From Fimbriimonadales bacterium (GTDB lineage Bacteria; Armatimonadota; Fimbriimonadia; Fimbriimonadales; Fimbriimonadaceae), in assembly GCA_026392145.1 (NCBI GenBank), contig JAPLCS010000190.1:1-8948 (forward strand): a stretch of DNA of 8,948 nt, written 5' to 3'. This document shows positions 3,501-7,581 of the stretch, one piece after another (position 1 is the stretch's first letter; each line of letters starts with the position of its first letter). A model generated the notes under the pieces. It did not search any database, had not been told where the DNA came from, and was given only the letters and a program-made list of their open reading frames with translations. Position numbers and translations under genes: made by a program.

Positions 3501-3576
3501 GGATCGATAGCTCAGTTGGTAGAGCAAGTGACTCTTAATCACTTGGTCCTGGGTTCGAGTCCCAGTCGGTCCACCA
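3501..3576 (+). tRNA. tRNA-Lys (anticodon CTT)
   Basis: A complete 76-base tRNA with encoded CCA. The acceptor stem GGATCGA pairs with TCGGTCC (one G-T pair), followed by discriminator A and CCA. The D stem is GCTC/GAGC with loop AGTTGGTA. The anticodon stem is AGTGA/TCACT with loop CTCTTAA, which gives anticodon CTT at positions 34-36 and so reads AAG (Lys). The variable loop is TGGTC. The T stem is CTGGG/CCCAG with loop TTCGAGT. It is a single-tRNA unit with its own promoter and terminator, flanked by a divergent GNAT gene. Confidence 0.97.
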
Positions 3577-3708: not shown

Positions 3709-4125
3709 ATGCCAAAGCTAACCCTTGAACAAAAAATGCACCGACCTGTTCACGCAGAGTTAAAGGTTTTGGATCGTGCATTTGGAGGAATAGAAGCTGG
3801 TCAGTTAATGTTGATTTCAACTCCACGGGATATTGAGGCCGCGATTCAGTTGATTCCGGAAAAATCGTTTATATCTGTATCCCAGTTAAGAAGACAACTG
3901 TCAATTGCAAAAGGTGCAGATGGTACTTGTCCGCTTACTACGGGGATTTTTTTGAGAATCGTGGCGGAGTATGCCTTTGAGTGTTATTTGAATGGCAAAG
4001 AAGTTCGAGACTTACCCCCGGTATGGAGAGTTATTGACTTAACAAGTCCGCTTGCCAAGAAGTTGCCTTTGGGATTGCTGGTACTGATAAGAAAGCAGCA
4101 ATCGCGAGAGGGTCTTCACGTTTAG
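3709..4125 (+). CDS. Small MGMT-like (alkyltransferase-fold) protein lacking the active-site cysteine
   Basis: A 138-residue protein that I match from memory to a small conserved family annotated as MGMT-like. The likely pieces are a stretch resembling the MGMT strand-helix IPxGxxVSYGQLA (here IPEKSFISVSQLRRQL, about 49-64), a family-specific block GADGTCPLTTGIFLRIVAE (about 69-87), and PPVWRVID (103-110). The last sits where O6-alkylguanine transferases have the active-site PCHRV, with Val-Trp replacing Cys-His. If the alignment holds, the protein cannot transfer alkyl groups by the classical mechanism, though it might bind DNA or nucleotides as alkyltransferase-like (ATL) proteins do. C74 is the cysteine in the conserved-looking block. 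The ATG start is at 3709. The gene lies upstream of pheT with a 179-base gap to the preferred pheT start. Family call moderate; function unknown. Confidence 0.6.
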   Translation: MPKLTLEQKMHRPVHAELKVLDRAFGGIEAGQLMLISTPRDIEAAIQLIPEKSFISVSQLRRQLSIAKGADGTCPLTTGIFLRIVAEYAFECYLNGKEVRDLPPVWRVIDLTSPLAKKLPLGLLVLIRKQQSREGLHV

Positions 4126-4304: not shown

Positions 4305-6260
4305 ATGAAATTTCCTCTTTCGATGCTTCGTGATTATGTTGAAACTCATTTAGATGCCCGAGGAGATGGATTATCGGTATTCGGCTTGTCTAGAGAAATT
4401 TTGGCGAAGGATTTAGAATCCAAACCGACAGAGCTTTATCAGCGTGCGAGTCATCGATTTGAGTCAACTACTGTATTTGAGAGTTTGGTAATTGAGGATA
4501 CGATTGCGACAATTGCCAGCGAATTTTGCCGACGTTTTTCAGTGCGTAAATTCGAAGGTGTTGACGCTTCAGCGAGTGCACCTGAATGGATTCAGGTTAG
4601 ACTTGAATCATGTGGAATGCGACCGATTAGTCTACTGGTGGATTTGACGAACTATGTCATGTTGGAACTAGGCCAGCCACTCCATGCATTTGATTTTGAT
4701 AAGTTGGCGGGCGGAAAATTAATCGTTCGTCATGCAATAGAGGGCGAGAAGCTAACCACCTTGAATGAAGTGGAGCATGAGCTTAGCGGTCAAATGATGA
4801 TTTGTGATGGCGCCTCTGCTGTTGGTGTACCTGGCATCATGGGTGGCCTTGCGACTGAGGTAACCGGTACTACAACCTCTGTTTTGCTTGAGAGTGCAAA
4901 CTTTGTGAACAACAATGTTCGAAAGACACGGAAGCAATTAGGATTAAATACTGAGGCTTCTTATCGTTTTGAACGAAGCGTTGACCCAGATGGAGTAACG
5001 GCGGCAACACGGCGATTTACTGAGTTGTTGCTGAGTGTTCAGCCGAATGTTAAAGTTTCTAACATTGTTGATCTTTATCCTGGTAAGTCATCGTTCCCAA
5101 GTGTCCGAGTACGACCCGTAAAGGCTTCAACCCTCTTGGGTATGGAAATAACTCTGGCTGAGGCTAAGAATTACCTTGAGAGGCTGGGGATGGATGTGAG
5201 GGAATCTGAGGGAGACTTATTGGTGGTTCCGCCCAGTTGGAGGCCGGATATCGTTCGAGAGGAGGACCTCATTGAGGAACTTGGTCGAGTGCATGGTTAT
5301 GAGCGTATTCCTGAGGCGTTGCCTTCGGGAAGTACACCGCTTGGTGGTCCGCAGGGCACTGAGTTGATGAAAGATAAGTTGAGAGAGTCGCTTCTGCGAT
5401 CTGGTTACATGCAGATGATTTCTCACTCATTGCGATCCGAACATGTTTTGGATGAACCTTGCGAACGTGTGGAACCTCGGAATCCCGCCTCGCCTGATCA
5501 TGACATTTTGAGATCAAGTTTATTGCCTGGATTGGCCGAGGCTGCAAGAAGAAACGGTTCGAAGCACCTGCATATTTTTGAAATGGGAAAGGTGTTCTAT
5601 CGGTGGCAAGGAGAATATGATGAGTCAACCTATGTGGCCTTGTTGTCACAGGGACATTTGATTCCTCAGAATAGACAGAATGAAGCTGTTCCCTCGGCAG
5701 ATTTCTTCACTCTCAAGGCGACTTTACAAGATGCTTTTTTATCATTGGGAATTAAAAAGGATGTCACTTGGGTTGCAATGGACGAGATTGACTCAAGATT
5801 CCATCCCTCTCGAGCAGCCAAATTGGTAAGTGCTAGTGGTGAGCAGGTTGGAATTGTGGGTCAAATTCATCCTCAGGTCGCTGTAGAAATTGGTTTGGAA
5901 CCTGATACGGTGATGGCAGAAGTCGCTTGGGATAAGCTCGTATCCGTTTCACACCCAGAACTCAGAATAAAGGGCATCAGTCGGAATCCTGCGGCCAGAC
6001 GAGACATTGCGATTTTGGTGAGTAAGGCTGTTTCATACGAGCAGATTGAGTCTGTGATTGCCGATACTGCGGGTGAACTTTTGGAGAAGCAGTGGCTTTT
6101 CGATGTTTTTGAAGGAAAAGGAGTTCCAGAGGGCAGCCATTCACTCGGTATTGGCATGCAGTTTCGGAAAATGGGCTCGAACTTTACAGATGTGGAAGCG
6201 AACCAGGTGCGCGATGAGATCGTTGAGGCGCTTGGAAAGATTGGGGCGTCACTGCGATAA
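4305..6260 (+). CDS. pheT: Phenylalanine-tRNA ligase beta subunit, lacking the N-terminal tRNA-binding (B2) domain
   Basis: Beta subunit of the alpha2-beta2 PheRS that charges tRNA-Phe; the beta chain carries editing and tRNA-binding domains. The start at 4305 gives the canonical opening MKFPLSMLRDYV; an ATG at 4245 would add 20 unmatched residues. After LDA (residue 17) the chain jumps to RGDGLSVFGLSREI, which corresponds to the NRPDxLSvlGxARE segment usually near residue 150. The EMAP/OB-fold B2 domain is therefore absent and the length is 651 rather than about 790-800. The rest is well conserved: the B3/B4 editing region with GQPLHAFD (about 122-129), GIMGG (177-181) and TEASYRFERSVDP (about 216-228); B5 (about 268-340, SWRPDIVREEDLIEELGRVHGYERIP); the B6/B7 pseudo-catalytic core (about 345-550); and FDX-ACB (about 559-651, NPAARRDIAIL and FDVFEGKGVPEG). 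No pheS lies directly upstream. Its 3' end overlaps the converging membrane gene. Confidence 0.93.
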   Translation: MKFPLSMLRDYVETHLDARGDGLSVFGLSREILAKDLESKPTELYQRASHRFESTTVFESLVIEDTIATIASEFCRRFSVRKFEGVDASASAPEWIQVRLESCGMRPISLLVDLTNYVMLELGQPLHAFDFDKLAGGKLIVRHAIEGEKLTTLNEVEHELSGQMMICDGASAVGVPGIMGGLATEVTGTTTSVLLESANFVNNNVRKTRKQLGLNTEASYRFERSVDPDGVTAATRRFTELLLSVQPNVKVSNIVDLYPGKSSFPSVRVRPVKASTLLGMEITLAEAKNYLERLGMDVRESEGDLLVVPPSWRPDIVREEDLIEELGRVHGYERIPEALPSGSTPLGGPQGTELMKDKLRESLLRSGYMQMISHSLRSEHVLDEPCERVEPRNPASPDHDILRSSLLPGLAEAARRNGSKHLHIFEMGKVFYRWQGEYDESTYVALLSQGHLIPQNRQNEAVPSADFFTLKATLQDAFLSLGIKKDVTWVAMDEIDSRFHPSRAAKLVSASGEQVGIVGQIHPQVAVEIGLEPDTVMAEVAWDKLVSVSHPELRIKGISRNPAARRDIAILVSKAVSYEQIESVIADTAGELLEKQWLFDVFEGKGVPEGSHSLGIGMQFRKMGSNFTDVEANQVRDEIVEALGKIGASLR

Positions 6261-7581
6261 GGAAAGTTTTCCAGAATGCTTTTGTCGCTTCGATTAGAGC
6301 TAGGACCATGAACCCGGCAGGGAAGTAATGATAGTGTCCGAATTCCTTGAGGAATGCCATAGGGAGAAAGGCAAGCATCGCCATGATTATCGCAAGCAGG
6401 GGTAGCTTGCAGTCTTTTTTGATAGAACTCCAGAACCCAACGTAGGAAGCGAACCTAAGTAAGACTGCCCAGATAGTGATATCCAACAGAATCATATAGT
6501 TTTCTGTAAAGTCTGTGAATACCGCTTTGAGATAATTGAAGGTGGGAAAGAGTGGCGGAATAATATAGGCAAGGAGGTCAATAACAACCCCGGGGCCTGA
6601 GCGGAATTGTTGTTGTTGGTAGCCACTAGGCCCGATGGGAACGAACTGCAAACGGGCGATGGTGTAGGCAAACAAGATCATCCAGAATGGGAATTGGAAC
6701 GAAAATCTAGTTTGGACTCCCGTTCTTCTGAGCCAAAATCCAGCCGCTATAATGACGAAAGGAACCATAACTGCTTGTTCGTAGCAACCTAATGCCAGTG
6801 CCATACTTGTGAGCGAGATTCCGTACCAGAACCAACCGATTGATGATGATGAAGATTTAGCTTGTGAGGAGGTGCGAGTTGCGGGGAGGTCTAGGGCAGT
6901 CGGAAGCGGTTCAGGAGTTCTTTCTCCGTTAAGTCGTTCAAATCGTAAATAAGCTGCGATGGAGCAAAAGGCAAAAATGGTCATGCTTGTTGCCGTTCTT
7001 CCTGGCAACCAGAAGAGAGTATCTCCCGCCAGTTTAGAGGAAACTGATGATGCTAAAGTGGGAAGGAAAAGTAACCCAAGACATGGGGTTATTGCTGATA
7101 CTAGGGGTTTCTTGAACTTGATTGTCGCAATTGCAACGACAATGGAAAGTGTTGGGGGCGCATAGAGTAGCAATGAGTCTATGTTGTGGCGGAATATCCA
7201 ACCGTTGGTGGACCATAGAGCAAAAATCCACGCAGCGACGATGCCTTGACCAAGTGATTTGGTAAATTCAGTGACGAGCCATGCGAGCGATAGAGTCGCA
7301 AGACAGCAAATCATTGCTTGAGTAAGTCCGAATCCTTCGCCAGAACTTTGGTGAAGTCGATGATCAAAGTCAAACATGATAGTGCTGATGGGGCGATAAA
7401 AGTGGTTACCCAGAGGCCAGTCGTGTGTGAACCAGTGCCATGGGTTGTTGACTTCGGTCAGTTTTTTGAGCAAGTAGGCTGTATCGGTGTCAAGTAGCAG
7501 GTTATTTGATCTAGGTCGTGCCAGCATTATTGGCAGGCAACTTGCAAGTAGTAACAACCAGTGCCCCCAATGTTTTTTCAC
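6184..7581 (-). CDS. Polytopic membrane protein, GT-C-type glycosyltransferase-like
   Basis: A 465-residue integral membrane protein with about 10-13 hydrophobic segments: a first one at about 7-22, a cluster at about 88-215, and more from about 250 to 440. A Ser/Thr/Pro-rich loop lies at about 220-247. The pattern resembles GT-C glycosyltransferases that use lipid-linked sugars. The first extracytoplasmic loop has acidic LLDTDTAY (D31, D33) and then NHFYRPIS (59-66), like the HFRP motif of that group. Later come LFWLPGRTATSM (about 189-200) and a GCYEQAVMVP segment near 270, which recall the W-x-S-GR and SKE-x-x-x-xLP patterns. Specific donor and acceptor cannot be told. The GTG start at 7579-7581 has CATAAT 6 bases upstream and no Shine-Dalgarno. 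The last 26 or so codons are antisense to the pheT 3' end, with the stop at 6184-6186. Confidence 0.8.
   Translation of the reverse strand: MKKHWGHWLLLLASCLPIMLARPRSNNLLLDTDTAYLLKKLTEVNNPWHWFTHDWPLGNHFYRPISTIMFDFDHRLHQSSGEGFGLTQAMICCLATLSLAWLVTEFTKSLGQGIVAAWIFALWSTNGWIFRHNIDSLLLYAPPTLSIVVAIATIKFKKPLVSAITPCLGLLFLPTLASSVSSKLAGDTLFWLPGRTATSMTIFAFCSIAAYLRFERLNGERTPEPLPTALDLPATRTSSQAKSSSSSIGWFWYGISLTSMALALGCYEQAVMVPFVIIAAGFWLRRTGVQTRFSFQFPFWMILFAYTIARLQFVPIGPSGYQQQQFRSGPGVVIDLLAYIIPPLFPTFNYLKAVFTDFTENYMILLDITIWAVLLRFASYVGFWSSIKKDCKLPLLAIIMAMLAFLPMAFLKEFGHYHYFPAGFMVLALIEATKAFWKTFLIAVTPQSFQAPQRSHRAPGSLPHL

Follow-up and report, generated by a model that had tools for sequence, protein, structure and literature searches.

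The pheT gene of the window (the whole 8,948-nucleotide stretch analysed here) most probably encodes a bacterial-type phenylalanyl-tRNA synthetase (PheRS) beta subunit that is without the EMAP/OB-fold domain B2, as is every related PheT read in its phylum, Armatimonadota, and that is predicted to charge and proofread without it. At the same place, 33 more codons are missing, which is likely due to faulty assembly or to a deletion in this strain.

The gene is a single open frame with its ATG at 4305 and its stop at 6258-6260, encoding 651 aa. It exceeds the curated NCBI cutoff of TIGR00472 (bacterial PheT; 402.65) with 472.7 bits, the alignment covering residues 19-651 from model position 169 onward. 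Pfam matches B3_4, B5, tRNA_synthFbeta (CLM) and FDX-ACB in the bacterial order, and no Pfam match to PF01588 (EMAP/OB-fold, tRNA_bind) is present in the protein. The frame and the Pfam matches uphold the initial annotation, which had described an open-framed, 651-residue PheT without the EMAP/OB-fold B2, with the editing domain, B5, the pseudo-catalytic core and FDX-ACB intact. The window is the whole of one contig from a 2.56-Mb genome (437 contigs, 89.9% complete) of the Fimbriimonas group, its nearest named matches being Fimbriimonas sp. and proteins of Armatimonadota or Fimbriimonas, and a second pheT, the presence of a full-length copy having been raised initially, was not found in that assembly. 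The features are as follows:

4305..6260, + strand: pheT, phenylalanyl-tRNA synthetase beta subunit, 651 aa, without B2
4305..4358, + strand: 18 codons remaining from the first half of B1, MKFPLSMLRDYVETHLDA (alignment with P0001 and relatives)
4358..4359, + strand: junction at which 33 codons of P0001 are absent and the B2 absent from the lineage would also sit
4527..5036, + strand: B3/B4 editing domain, residues 75-244 (PF03483, E = 5.8e-61)
4647..4892, + strand: stretch with six editing-site residues (alignment to 1b70_B, conservation, identity)
5103..5300, + strand: B5 domain, residues 267-332 (PF03484)
5307..5927, + strand: catalytic-like module B6-B7, residues 335-541 (PF17759)
5979..6257, + strand: FDX-ACB anticodon-binding domain, B8, residues 559-651 (PF03147)
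2023-2766, - strand: open frame, 247 aa, no NCBIfam match at E 0.001 and no Pfam match
3501-3576: tRNA-Lys(ctt)
3709-4125, + strand: open frame, 138 aa, no NCBIfam match at E 0.001 and no Pfam match
6184-7581, - strand: open frame, 465 aa, no NCBIfam match at E 0.001

The pheS gene of this genome lies on another contig (L109, C277) and does not adjoin pheT. It is likewise absent from the flanks of up to 1.5 kb around pheT in the closest relatives (L002-L007) and from 5 kb on each side in L032. Among the 29 loci L002-L030, pheS was detected within up to 1.5 kb of pheT in nine (L008, L009, L013, L018, L022, L024, L026, L029 and L030), and the pheST pair seems to be split in the window's part of the genus.

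B2 absence across Armatimonadota

On protein comparison, the homologue P0001 is identical to the window PheT at 647 of the 651 shared positions (4 differences) and, by that measure, is from the same species as the window. It aligns in two pieces both with E. coli PheT (3pco_B; 17-56 with 1-40, and 57-693 with 155-786) and with the Thermus thermophilus protein (1b70_B; 17-54 with 1-38, and 57-700 with 153-780), the N-terminal pieces scoring low on their own. P0001 is thus itself already without B2, by an exact excision of E. coli residues 41-154 or T. thermophilus residues 39-152. These alignments indicate that the lineage is without one block of about 114 residues, B2, and that the window contig is without 33 more from B1. 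The initial annotation had presented the gap as a clean absence of B2; this describes the block of about 114 residues but not the further 33, which come from B1.

A pheT match was found in all 61 genomes searched (the window's own and those of its genus, family and order), and TIGR00472 matched in 236 of the 237 genomes of the phylum, 223 of them above the cutoff; some of the weak matches may come from EMAP domains in other genes or from contigs that split the gene. Every alignment among the matches listed starts at model position 153 or later. We read the N-terminus at 71 loci from 69 genomes, representing 35 of the 44 family codes of the phylum (L032 and L033 are by sequence and length the same contigs as L004 and L006). 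At 70 loci, 0-17 residues replace E. coli residues 41-154, against 114-122 residues in 11 of 11 B2-bearing controls; the remaining locus, L043, was misaligned by the program and is B2-less when read by eye. The relatives join the two halves of B1 directly where E. coli and Thermus carry the B2 insert, as in L004, whose N-terminus, MKFPYSMLRDFVETSLDAHQIGDLLTMAGFELEGIEEVGDEFVLDIKVMSNRGDGLSVFGL, is a contiguous B1 with no B2. They retain the editing-site residues, along with the domains for editing and anticodon binding and the pseudo-catalytic module. No PF01588 match was detected in the PheT proteins of the listed homologues (best 120 of 7988) or in a scan of 47 relatives. The median length of those 120 homologues is 682 aa and not the 790-800 residues that had initially been taken as the norm; a length check would misjudge such normal genes as truncated.

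The absence extends to Fimbriimonas ginsengisoli, whose PheT (P0063; single contig of 5,231,762 bases) is without B2. Its genome is described as complete and derived from an isolate in the available text of PMC4072686, and a metagenome artefact is therefore no explanation for the B2 part of the gap. That all of the roughly 147 missing residues reflect one misassembly or deletion in this contig could be imagined for a fragmented assembly (437 contigs) with imperfect joins, yet B2 is missing in the 69 other genomes of the phylum that were read, single-contig ones among them, and in the F. ginsengisoli protein, and the idea is already refuted for B2; we give it virtually no credence. Judged by these comparisons, the absence of B2 is a real and old lineage trait. 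The initial annotation's proposal of a lineage-specific loss is to that extent supported, since no relative that was read has B2. In two genomes of family code f24 (G172 and G173; 97% and 96% complete), the best TIGR00472 match was only about 1e-31, far below that of other families; the gene may be broken up or missing from the assembly there, or the PheT may be of a different type.

As a contrast we used the 119 genomes of the phylum of a Syntrophomonadaceae record (L034), of which 105 have at least two PF01588 matches and 14 have one. TIGR00472 was checked in 10 genomes with a single MetRS-size match and in 10 others. Nine of the former have a B2-less PheT (G241, G243, G257, G274, G299, G310, G314, G336 and G347), that of G314 being split over two contigs, and the tenth, G345, gave no PheT; in the 10 others, the match began at model position 1 or 2 and ended at 791 or 798. 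Nine B2-less genomes of 119 is a lower bound, as G279, another with a single match, was left out and two PF01588 matches are no proof of B2.

An unrooted tree was built by a quick method from 66 rows covering the region that follows B1, and it has 21 open forks. A branch with SH-aLRT support of 100 separates the 45 rows of Armatimonadota from all others, and the remaining B2-less rows are interspersed with B2-bearing ones. On this tree the B2 label requires six changes, two of them forced by starred branches, and an AU test rejected holding all 54 B2-less rows together (p-AU 0.00136). By the tree and the AU test, B2 absence arose more than once, and repeated loss is the plain reading.

One alternative is that the phylum never had B2, keeping an older form of PheT, B2 having been inserted only afterwards and in other lineages. 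Because the root is unplaced, the tree alone cannot separate gain from loss, and 36 of 47 relatives match the Pfam B1 model (PhetRS_B1), if weakly and below its cutoff. To our knowledge, archaeal and eukaryotic PheT are also without B2, which counts in favor of this alternative. Against it, B2 is present in the E. coli, Thermus, Staphylococcus and Mycobacterium chains and in most of the contrast phylum, and the B2-less rows of that phylum are nested among B2-bearing ones, which shows that loss does happen. We judge that an original absence of B2 has a small chance of being correct.

B2 is regarded as a standard domain of bacterial PheRS, and here a phylum with a cultured member is without it. 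The entry seen in AARS Online lists the EMAP OB-fold under PheRS-B beta. Canonical PheT (E. coli 3PCO, T. thermophilus 1PYS/2IY5) has the same order of B1, B3/B4, B5, CLM and B8 and the same editing residues, but it has B2, absent here, and a complete B1, which is short by 33 residues in the window only. A B2-less bacterial PheT is a published kind: the available text of PMC5370408 reports many PheRS-beta sequences of CPR bacteria without B2 and names one example. By that description, the CPR proteins are likewise bacterial PheT without B2 and with the other domains kept; they differ in belonging to another phylum and, in the text seen, in being given as "many CPR" with no survey, whereas all 69 genomes read here are B2-less. 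The E. coli PheRS from which B2 was reportedly removed (Roy and Ibba 2006) shares the absence, but it was made in the laboratory, whereas the form described here occurs in nature and is old. Archaeal/eukaryotic PheRS beta (human 3L4G; Pfam PhetRS_B1) shares a weak match to the B1 model and a structural match over residues 14-596, but according to the portion of PMC3275996 consulted it is without B8, which is present here. No report of B2 loss in Armatimonadota was found among open-licence papers, and our finding extends the known B2-less PheT to a whole phylum.

The additional gap at 4358/4359

In the window, the codons for LDA end at 4358 and those for RGD begin directly at 4359, with the frame uninterrupted. 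Residues 35-67 of P0001, 33 residues forming the core of B1, have no counterpart in the window PheT. The stretch is kept, with the NRGD motif at residue 45 or later, in 119 of the 120 listed homologues (best 120 of 7988), and the remaining one, P0098, is a fragment without its N-terminus; in the window PheT, the motif is at residue 18. The 33 residues include 15 that do not vary across 47 sequences. A complete B1 is thus kept in relatives and broken only in the window protein.

The initial annotation had argued that an intact frame and conserved flanks favored a real loss. For the window-only part this argument fails, because the same species, as represented by P0001, retains those 33 codons. 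The option of a misassembly or deletion, also raised there, does not apply to B2, whose absence is lineage-wide, but it (or a strain deletion) is likely for the 33 codons. Extra bases at the junction had been named as evidence against a real loss; for the 33 codons nearly that was found, in the form of a protein and not of reads.

The source assembly is scaffolded, with four N runs (4, 4, 26 and 47 bases) in the 16 readable contigs (117,361 bases) of a set of 20. Two of the four are flanked on both sides by identical bases, 10 and 17 in number, whereas in a control adjacent 40-mers shared at least 10 bases in 7 of 4000 draws. One of these runs, of 4 bases (L031 149-152, the same as L129 1230-1233), lies within a MetRS-like gene with the same 17 bases on each side and resembles a scaffold join left unmerged; some of the N runs could instead represent withheld sequence. 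Since the assembly has such rough joins, the 33-codon gap, unique to the window copy, probably reflects faulty assembly or a deletion in this strain, and the shortened B1 is probably not biological. The pheT junction itself carries neither an N run nor a repeat, which makes the argument for an artefact circumstantial. A repeat was considered as the cause and rejected: the 60-base flanks share at most 7 bp in a row, and that stretch is not at the junction. A gap in a metagenome assembly on top of a true domain loss can mimic a single event.

A real strain deletion of the 33 codons is possible. In its functional form, the strain would rely on a PheT that has neither B2 nor the B1 core. The reading frame is unbroken, the remainder of the gene shares 99% identity with P0001, and the assembly holds no other pheT; when the missing piece was sought elsewhere in the assembly, the only match was the retained part of pheT. 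The clean junction, with neither repeat nor N run, is also consistent with a deletion, as is the AlphaFold2 model of the window protein, in which the later domains are still modelled confidently. Over the first 30 residues, by contrast, the block confidence is 76, 74 and 84, and the 74-76 of the first 20 compares with 95-97 in B1 of P0001. The near-universal retention of the stretch and its 15 invariant positions further weigh against a functional deletion. So does Mycoplasma pneumoniae PheT, which, as far as the text of PMC12494982 available to us goes, can be split between B1 and B3 with the B1-B2-B1 fragment still supplied. We hold a functional deletion to be unlikely, though not far-fetched. 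The fuller version, in which the phylum runs a proofreading PheRS without B2 and with nothing replacing it and the window strain has dispensed with the B1 core as well, would make this the most reduced heterotetramer-type bacterial PheT known; it is distinctly unlikely.

Editing site, B1 fold and predicted function

We return to the preferred reading, a B2-less enzyme shared by the phylum. Six editing-site residues are given for T. thermophilus in the part of PMC3275996 seen (T249, N250, H261, G315, E323 and E334). In the alignment to 1b70_B, the window counterparts T115, N116, H127, G177, E185 and E196 are identical at all six positions. Across 46 rows of the phylum (P0001 and the window included), the first position is T in 45 and S in one; N, H, G and the final E (E196) are found in all 46; and the position of E185 is E in 42, A in 3 and S in 1.

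An AlphaFold2 model of P0001 (with 46 relatives) has a pLDDT of 89-97 over residues 21-60 and 76 over residues 61-70, with a pTM of only 0.58. A turn of two residues, placed where B2 would be, connects strands 47-54 and 57-65, and B1 of P0001 is predicted to be folded without B2. Structure searches matched PheRS beta chains over residues 17-700 with a whole-chain rmsd near 20 A, which supports the domains and not their placement.

A pheS is present in the window's genome. The subunit would pair with PheS as in other bacteria, aminoacylation would take place at the PheS site, and Tyr-tRNA-Phe would be removed at B3/B4. Charging and post-transfer editing are inferred, from the conserved residues and the models, to continue without B2. 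Absent from the window and from 69 other genomes, B2 is predicted to be unnecessary in the phylum; the cost would be the extra tRNA grip of B2, and no other protein would be needed to replace it. In E. coli PheRS, B2 was reportedly described by Roy and Ibba in 2006 as dispensable and as contributing to editing. A B2-less phylum that keeps the editing site is a natural experiment on the purpose of B2, and its role (editing in trans versus tRNA affinity alone) is directly testable in F. ginsengisoli.

EMAP domains elsewhere in the genomes

A stand-alone tRNA-binding protein had initially been suggested to take over from B2. The single PF01588 match in the window's genome (89.9% complete) is the C-terminus of a MetRS-like frame, the name being a reading of its sequence, and a free-standing EMAP gene of the Trbp111/CsaA/YtpR type was not found there, which leaves the takeover unsupported. 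Phylum-wide, PF01588 is present in 233 of 237 genomes, mostly once, and the frames are mostly of MetRS size among the matches listed. As a check on sensitivity, the G242 match lies in an 820-aa frame, the size of the L035 PheT; B2 is therefore detectable by this search.

Replacement of B2 in trans, by such a free-standing protein or by the EMAP tail of MetRS, draws on two observations: a second, short EMAP frame (106-280 aa) occurs in 25 of the order's 61 genomes, and the MetRS-like tail is present in the window's genome. Twenty-four of the 25 are in one family, however, and one is under the curated cutoff; the other 36 genomes have one EMAP match or none, and the window's genome has no second frame. 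The short frame is thus not a general replacement, and the MetRS tail, found in B2-bearing genomes too, is no specific substitute. Replacement in trans is accordingly very improbable. A move of B2 to a different synthetase, as some CPR show, was also considered; it is probably not the case here, the matches listed lying mostly in MetRS-size or short frames. In G049, G112 and G129, the best EMAP match is in a short frame (117, 111 and 168 aa, respectively) and not in one of MetRS size; this could mean that MetRS is split, that the frame is cut or that the EMAP protein is free-standing.
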